Source of the DNA: Spirochaetota bacterium
Lineage (GTDB): Bacteria; Spirochaetota; Spirochaetia; Treponematales; UBA12059
Length of the DNA: 64,000 nt
Direction: 5' to 3'
Assembly: GCA_018262985.1 (NCBI GenBank)
Contig: JADFDI010000001.1
Coordinates: forward strand, 1-64,000
Part shown: one piece after another, positions 41,462-42,206 of the stretch
Numbering within the stretch: position 1 is the first letter of the stretch
Layout of the letters: each line of letters begins with the position of its first letter
The notes under the pieces: model-generated
Told to the model about the DNA's origin: nothing
Databases searched by the model: none
Seen by the model: only the letters and a program-made list of their open reading frames with translations
Translations under genes and position numbers: made by a program

Positions 41462-41537
41462 GAGGGCGCCCTCCGCGCGCTTGACCCTCCGCGAGCGCGC
41501 GTGTTATGTTGGCCGGGCGTTCCGAAAGGGACGAGAC

Positions 41538-41563
41538 GGGCATTAGCGCAGGTGGTCAGCGTC
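41538..41563 (+). pseudogene. Duplicated 5' half of tRNA-Pro
   Basis: 26 bp match the first 26 bases of the intact tRNA-Pro gene downstream, with one change (GGTC for GGTT in the D loop). This is the acceptor 5' strand plus the whole D arm. The match then stops and no anticodon arm follows. It lies 55 bp upstream of the real gene. A TATGTT-like -10 near 41504-41509 may drive transcription through it. Confidence 0.75.
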
Positions 41564-41592
41564 GTCGAGACGTGGATTAAAGATTTATCGGT

Positions 41593-41666
41593 CGGGCATT
41601 AGCGCAGGTGGTTAGCGTACAAGTCTGGGGGACTTGGGGTCCCCGGTTCGAGTCCGGGATGCCCGA
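41593..41666 (+). tRNA. tRNA-Pro (anticodon GGG)
   Basis: The cloverleaf folds fully. Acceptor CGGGCAT pairs with ATGCCCG and the discriminator is A. The D arm is GCGC/GCGT. The anticodon stem CAAGT/ACTTG has loop CTGGGGG, which places GGG at positions 34-36. The variable loop is 5 nt. The T arm CCCGG/CCGGG has loop TTCGAGT. The length is 74 nt and the CCA end is not encoded. It reads CCC and CCU proline codons. The 3' end from the T stem onward is the founding copy of the tandem repeats that follow. Confidence 0.95.
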
Positions 41667-42145
41667 CCGATAAATTTTCAGGCGAAGGCCGCACCGATCA
41701 AGGTGCGGCTTTTGCTTTCATGAGGGGTCGGGCATCCCGGTTTTTCAAGGAATTTCATTGAAAGGCGTCGCCTTCGGCGACGTTTAAATCCGGGATGCCC
41801 GACCGATAAATTTTCAGGCAAAGGCCGCACCGATCAAGGTGCGGCTTTTATTTTCTGGTGGGTCGGGCATCCCGGCTTTGCAAGGAAGGGGTTGAAAAGC
41901 GTCGCCTTCGGCGACTGGTAAGTCCTGGATGCCCGACCGATATATCTTCAGGCGAAGGCCGCACCGAGTCAGGTGCGGCTCTCGCTTGTATGCGGGGTCG
42001 GGCATCCCGGTTTTTCAAGGAAATTCATTGTATGTCGTCGCCTTCGGCGACGTTTAAATCCGGGATGCCCGACCGATAAATCTTCAGGCGAAGGCCGCGC
42101 CGATCAAGGTGCGGCTTTTATTTTCTGGTGGGTCGGGCATCCCGG
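41654..42145 (+). repeat. Tandem repeats derived from the tRNA-Pro 3' end
   Basis: Four units start at 41654 (inside the tRNA), 41790, 41924 and 42060, with periods of 136, 134 and 136 bp. Each unit has five parts. (a) CCGGGATGCCCGACC, the tRNA T-stem and acceptor 3' strand. (b) Terminator-like hairpin CCGCACC/GGTGCGG followed by CTTTT. (c) GGTCGGGCATCCCGG, the exact inverse of (a), at 41726, 41861, 41996 and 42131. (d) A TTTTTCAAGG-type spacer. (e) Hairpin CGTCGCC-TTC-GGCGACG. The last unit lacks (d)-(e). Parts (a) and (c) form a 15-bp stem around (b). There are compensatory changes (CCGCGCC with GGTGCGG in unit 4), suggesting that structure is conserved. No coding role is evident. Confidence 0.9.
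41688..41717 (+). terminator. Intrinsic terminator of tRNA-Pro, first repeat unit
   Basis: Arms GCCGCACC and GGTGCGGC with loop GATCAA, then TTTTGCTTT, 22 bp after the tRNA. Copies recur in the other repeat units near 41824, 41959 and 42094. Confidence 0.8.
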
Positions 42146-42206
42146 TTTTTTCAGGGGCTGCCGCGGGGGGCGCGCGGGGCGCGGGAAAAGCGTTGCTAAA
42201 AAGCCG

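Follow-up and report, generated by a model that had tools for sequence, protein, structure and literature searches.

Tandem repeats of 178 bp lie downstream of the tRNA gene tyrT in E. coli (rtT RNA, RF00391). They begin with the last bases of the tRNA, and termination takes place in the repeat region. The array described here follows a tRNA-Pro(GGG) gene in a spirochaete genome of 3.44 Mb (G000), and like the tyrT repeats it consists of direct tandem repeats carrying a tRNA 3' end. Each unit has the order x T x' C, where x is the tRNA 3' end, T a terminator-like hairpin, x' the exact inverse of x, and C a core. In the tyrT repeats, however, an inverted copy of the tRNA end is not known, nor is a core that covaries or that recurs at other tRNA genes. 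An Rfam scan of the window, which is the whole stretch of 64,000 nucleotides analysed, reported only tRNA at the gathering threshold, and RF00391 was unmatched.

Elements with tyrosine integrases at tRNA genes offer a second comparison. Entry at the T-arm, a rebuilt tRNA and a partial copy at the far end are common to both. Unlike these elements, the spirochaete cassettes are about 130-250 bp long, carry no integrase gene and have no room for a gene, match their target to each tRNA, and add the inverse x'. REP/BIME sequences with their RAYT proteins (Y1, HUH) are alike in being short interspersed intergenic hairpin repeats, often in tandem. A REP hairpin has a conserved GTAG-like tetranucleotide at its foot; type II cores carry GTAG-NG 5' of the hairpin, and type I cores mostly GTA-. 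However, the stems around the core of a cassette come from the host gene, and whereas REP copies flank RAYT genes, only one of the six Y1_Tnp genes in G000 adjoins a core. Quasipalindrome template-switch mutations of E. coli and yeast resemble the cassettes in their exact inverted copies made by hairpins and in their covarying stems, but the known cases are local corrections and do not bring one structured core to a fixed site in many genes. Integron attC sites were also considered and rejected. Their GTTRRRY / RYYYAAC boxes were not seen by eye, and the cores end in GTAAGT, TTTAAAT, CCTCAT or GGAAGC.

Structure of the tRNA-Pro array

The functional tRNA-Pro(GGG) gene lies at 41593-41668 on the forward strand, as do all features of the array, and was recognized by ARAGORN and by Rfam RF00005 (56.7 bits). 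Four tandem units of 134-136 bp follow at its 3' side. The x of the first unit is the last 15 nt of the tRNA itself (41654-41668). Its sequence, CCGGGATGCCCGACC, starts at 41654, 41790, 41924 and 42060, with spacings of 136, 134 and 136, and the exact inverse starts at 41726, 41861, 41996 and 42131, with a spacing of 135. Matches with at most two mismatches numbered 10, against 0.87 expected from shuffles of the window; the arrangement is far beyond chance.

Unit 1 (41654-41740) comprises x, a T stem-loop at 41685-41709 followed by TTTT, and x' at 41726-41740. Core copy 1, of type I, occupies 41741-41789 and consists of TTTTTCAAGGAATTTCATTGAAAGG, a hairpin at 41766-41782 and TTTAAAT, with the next x directly after. 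It matched the R1 covariance model with 65.8 bits and an E-value of 1.9e-10 (E-values of R1 and of the R2 model below are rough), and it belongs to the sequences from which R1 was built. Unit 2 (41790-41875) contains x, T at 41820-41849 and x' at 41861-41875, and is followed by core copy 2 at 41876-41923 (46 bits, E 3.2e-6). The x of unit 3 (41924-42010) carries one mismatch, CCTGG, and its x' at 41996-42010 is unaltered; core copy 3 lies at 42011-42059 (69.1 bits, E 3.8e-11). Unit 4 (42060-42145) again contains x, T at 42090-42119 and x' at 42131-42145. Only the start of a fourth core (TTTTTTCAGG...) can be read at the end of the array, at 42146-42160. It stops after about 15 nt, leaving three complete cores. 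The core is about 49 nt long, with its own hairpin, CGTCGCC-TTC-GGCGACG. Folded together, unit 1, its core and the next x reached -85.6 kcal/mol (z -8.0).

The preliminary description had reported four units of 134-136 bp, and the repeat coordinates and the excess over shuffles bear this out. The anatomy it gave, with x, a hairpin, the exact inverse and a second hairpin in every unit, holds except that the last core is incomplete. It had also placed a terminator-like hairpin in each unit. A GC-rich hairpin followed by a T-run is indeed present in all four, but a simple terminator scan passed only the T of units 2 and 4, so that for units 1 and 3 the term terminator is our own reading. An assembly artefact, which it had named as a refutation, is not obvious. 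G002, one of two congeneric genomes (G001 and G002), has a four-unit array with the same two flanking genes and 75% identity, and a single assembly error is therefore unlikely.

Upstream of the gene, 41537-41592 holds a leader preceded by an incomplete copy of the 5' part of the tRNA (41537-41562); direct repeat D2 (96%) was detected in this region, as were the inverted repeats I1-I4. The end of the leader (41580-41592) is the inverse of the tRNA-Pro trailer (41669-41678), which lengthens the acceptor stem by about 10 bp. This partial copy with its leader is a separate rearrangement at the same gene. Similar yet different complementary leader and trailer pairs were seen in other genera (L032, L034, L036 and L037). 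The complementary pairs look as if an intact tRNA had been placed within an older broken one.

Related cores at other genes and in other genomes

When the array was searched against 59 genomes, other genes of G000 came up. About 46 copies of the core were counted in this genome, over two subtypes and including some copies found by both searches, so the unit does have relatives elsewhere in the genome, as the preliminary description had proposed to check. The R1 model matched 22 times in G000, 13 and 6 times in the two congeners, and only rarely outside the genus. The second subtype, type II, was found by a pattern search in 24, 29 and 23 copies in three congeners, against at most one per genome for the reversed pattern with two mismatches allowed; the R1 and type II searches partly overlap. 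In 55 of 72 core copies, a GTAG-like box was followed by a perfect hairpin with 5 bp or more; the inner stems were of 14 different kinds, and shuffling left 6 of 72. Type II cores also stand head to tail in arrays of 63-66 bp (L079, G000 C15:385658-385838; L080, G000 C17:207961-208134; L091, G001 C47). Downstream of tRNA-Gly(tcc), at a distance of about 420-600 bp, stands the C15 array, which is reversed in orientation.

The arrangement x T x' C x was present in G000 at tRNA-Cys, tuf, a thiolase gene and the uvrB leader, the names of the protein genes being a reading of the translated sequence, and x and x' were specific to each gene. In the case of tuf, the repeated stretch covered the final 50-odd coding bases, the stop codon and the terminator, and the core lay between the copies; the thiolase gene had the same layout. 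The gene-proximal copy at tuf was intact and the distal one no longer had a stop codon, which would be expected of a near copy that restores the gene and a far copy left to decay. At uvrB, the region of the start codon was repeated in antisense. The uvrB insert (L077, G000 C6; L086, G002) has a good ribosome binding site just before the start codon, GAGGAGG in G000, and the empty uvrB site of G001 is without it. The congeners showed the same design at tRNA-Cys, and at tRNA-Pro(GGG) with a different core type. In two genomes, the tRNA-Cys copies formed perfect x T x' palindromes of 26-27 bp. Contigs C5 and C8 of G000 (L186, L209) both end in TAGTGTCCCCCGTAGTGGTGTAAA..., likely an insertion sequence beside tRNA-associated repeats.

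We then surveyed tRNA genes as a group, taking all 44 of G000 and 76 from two congeners and scanning 160 nt downstream of each. An exact inverse of the gene's own 3' end was found at 26 of 113 tRNA genes at a length of at least 14 nt, and at 32 of 113 at 12 nt or more. With the downstream region of another isotype as control, the corresponding values were 0 of 4000 and 0.6%. Most of the genes with an inverse carried a core of a second, longer kind (about 105-190 nt) at the T55|C56 step, with a conserved fold. Its 3' hairpin had 61 double-change cells against 22 in shuffles, and a covariation score of 0.75 against 0.26.

A model of this 3' hairpin alone, R2, was built from copies behind tRNA genes and used in a search blind to tRNA genes. 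Matches were found in at least 40 of 59 Spirochaetales genomes and at least 21 of 32 genera, which are lower bounds because the filters were strict and the number of candidates was capped. Thirty loci were examined, a few of them from genomes used to build R2. The longer core lay behind a tRNA on the same strand at 22 of these, and behind tmRNA at two of the other eight (L311 in G013 and L312 in G020), with x taken from the tmRNA T-arm. At 24 of the 30, x' was 9 nt or longer and its match began at the edge of the core. When 247 genomes sampled more widely from the phylum were searched with stricter filters, at least 15 had R2 matches, all of them in the same class. The sample consisted mostly of draft MAGs, in which contigs often break close to these repeats. 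In the complete genome G242, five units of 185 bp follow tRNA-Asn and three of 228 bp follow tRNA-Leu(gag), each of the form x T x' C.

The longer core matched no Rfam family, one strict pattern of it had no match in viral contigs, and our literature search found no account of tRNA-end repeats in spirochaetes. TD-2 RNA (RF03162) is a structured motif listed for Treponema whose first hairpin, with its AUGGA loop, resembles the third hairpin of the longer core. Sub-threshold TD-2 matches lay beside tRNA-Pro in G010 (42.8 bits, gathering threshold 48.7) and G015; such matches fall in the broken 3' half of tRNA-Pro (L032:693-788 and 1060-1154, L034:644-739, all on the minus strand). However, these scores are below the cut-off, the overall structure is another one, and the matched sequence, in a neighbouring stretch of another locus, is distinct from the core. 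TD-2 may be a distant relative.

A shared point P and a proposed cassette model

All these loci follow one rule. Along the gene, the order is gene, a point P, x T, x', C and again x T, with P inside the gene close to its end. The x' segment, directly next to the core, is the exact inverse of the 8-22 nt that come first after P; the second x stands at the core's other edge, and the gene-proximal copy of x T keeps the gene intact. P usually falls at an (A/G)T|C step where the core is of the window type, and at T55|C56 of the T-loop for the longer core at most tRNA and tmRNA genes.

Some sites were empty. The uvrB sequence of G001 runs straight through P, and tuf in G001 and G002 is without the type I array, with a type II element further downstream. 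The tRNA-Gly(tcc) and tRNA-Val(tac) genes are occupied in G000 and empty in G001. Only AAC separates x' from x at tRNA-Ser(gct) of G001, where two relatives have a core; this could be an empty site or a recombinational loss. The empty uvrB site and some of the empty tRNA sites could also reflect loss through recombination between the direct copies. The core type at one and the same tRNA differs between species, one core is nested within another at tRNA-Met of G002, and some tRNA genes have x' with neither core nor second x.

We consider the array to be a tandemly amplified, small, non-coding and non-autonomous cassette, which enters a gene near its end, restores that end by a copy and leaves an inverted copy behind, and we assign this reading a probability of about 0.6. 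The preliminary description had suggested a recombination target, since tRNA 3' ends serve as attachment sites, and this was the right direction, the array being one case of a class-wide family of cassettes that stand at the T-arm of tRNA and tmRNA genes and also at some protein genes. The architecture, the exact junctions, the patchy occupancy, the differing cores at the same tRNA, the nesting and the tandem arrays are direct observations. We infer that the cores move. The spread of the cassettes over many tRNA genes, two tmRNA genes and a few protein genes of the spirochaete class suggests a type of mobile or recombining DNA that has not been described before and that restores its target gene on entry.

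Such an insertion might proceed as follows. At P, some activity would link the core with the 5' end of x. The gene-side 3' end would be extended through x and T, fold back on the T hairpin and be copied back to P, which would make x' end exactly at P. The copied-back product would then be joined to the core. The unit x T x' C could fold as a dumbbell, and its direct repeats of x would let the array lengthen through unequal exchange or rolling-circle copying. Because a plain insertion would kill the cell when the tRNA is essential, only events that restore the end would survive, and we infer that selection for gene function explains why only these are seen. The tRNA-Cys palindromes of 26-27 bp are what a fresh fold-back would leave. 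However, a linker of about 5-10 nt without complementarity stands between the T-run and x' at several loci, and simple contiguous fold-back fails to account for x' there. T is also not always a fresh host copy, because the terminators of the two copies differ or swap order between species at tRNA-Pro(cgg) and tRNA-Leu(gag). The T segment is missing from the empty uvrB site. At tRNA-Pro(cgg), the terminator order is opposite in G000 and G001 (L195 and L252; L247 in G002), which suggests exchange or re-insertion of whole units.

No recombinase-carrying element was found among the cassettes, and a tyrosine recombinase acting in trans is the most obvious candidate for mobilising them. RAYT/Y1 transposases were rejected in this role. 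Their presence does not track the elements: Y1_Tnp is absent in nine element-positive genomes, and Y1-negative genomes carry the longer core. Numerous short GGGGACAGAGCTC / CTGTCCC repeats, in either orientation, surround the RAYT genes of the three congeneric genomes (L130, L131, L136 and L137 in G000, G001 and G002) and probably form a family that belongs to these genes. A retroelement (group II intron, retron or DGR) was rejected as well; reverse transcriptase (PF00078) does not track the elements, being absent in G000, G001, G002 and most element-positive genomes. Self-priming at transcript ends as a general source of x' was discarded because uvrB is an antisense case and pairing is lacking in most linkers. 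A reverse transcriptase stop at a modified T-loop base was discarded because P differs between core types and also occurs within protein genes.

Alternative readings and what the cassettes would mean

The arrays might also have arisen by neutral replication accidents. Template switches at terminator or REP-like hairpins would extend a palindrome into the tRNA, giving x', match its arms and duplicate the stretch between hairpins, and the cores would be interspersed hairpin repeats that drifted in, with no machinery or function. Template switching does create and repair inverted copies (PMC8794818; for E. coli, PMC7202029), and the perfect tRNA-Cys palindromes fit this account. So does the behaviour of x and x' between species. 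One pair of the tRNA-Pro T-stem is flipped from C-G in G000 to G-C in G002, and all copies of x and x' follow it, with one further change confined to the x of unit 3. Units are more alike within a genome (0.90 and 0.89) than between G000 and G002 (0.76), and the joint change of x, x' and T-stem is concerted evolution. Template switching makes such stem changes without selection on pairing (PMC8794818), so covariation between species would also be expected from template-switch correction together with concerted evolution. Neutral accidents nonetheless leave unexplained why a covarying longer core, accompanied by an edge-matched x', follows tRNA and tmRNA genes in a single orientation, and why the arrangement is restricted to some spirochaetes. 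We regard them as an unlikely origin of the array, though the likeliest of the rivals.

An RNA regulator is a good deal less probable. In one form, proposed in the preliminary description, the inverse would pair with the nascent tRNA 3' half in competition with the cloverleaf; in another, x'-C-x would be a conserved small RNA in tRNA maturation. Folding does prefer x:x' once x' is transcribed (-84.5 against -69.2 kcal/mol for the cloverleaf, a gap of about 15 kcal/mol), and the secondary structure of the longer core persists despite changes of sequence. However, x' lies past the terminator-like hairpin, and only read-through transcripts would carry it. The design also occurs at tuf, the thiolase gene and, in antisense, uvrB, where no cloverleaf is at stake. 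Occupancy is patchy between congeners, and the extended acceptor stem of the pre-tRNA in the window opposes such competition. The co-varying bases from which selection on RNA structure had been deduced are clear between species but weak inside the array, where the x of unit 3 is mutated and its x' is not; x and x' of tRNA-Leu(taa) in G000 also drift separately. With x' past the hairpin and drift going uncompensated, RNA pairing is disfavoured as an explanation, and neither the inferred selection nor the competition with the cloverleaf finds support.

That the arrays are decoy attachment sites, kept to absorb phage or island integration and spare the functional tRNA, is hardly credible, for although x begins in the T-arm, a usual crossover region of tyrosine integrases, and each array offers several copies of it, a decoy needs neither the inverse copy nor the structured core, and protein genes have the same design.

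Returning to the insertion cassette, its broadest form can be held only tentatively, at somewhat less than even odds. The cassettes would then be a class of non-coding mobile DNA widespread in Spirochaetia. A structured core would enter the T-loop of tRNA and tmRNA genes, with related forms at the ends of protein genes; the host would copy its own 3' end as repair, and the core would be left wrapped in an inverted copy of the target, with both arms rewritten at each site. Covariation between a tRNA and its downstream inverse can arise without selection on RNA pairing, and automated searches for RNA motifs would read function into it. If the broad form is true, the cassettes would be a natural system for the entry of DNA into essential RNA genes without killing the cell, and the tRNA and tmRNA neighbourhoods of a whole bacterial class would have been shaped in part by a so far undescribed element whose flanks are rewritten from its target.
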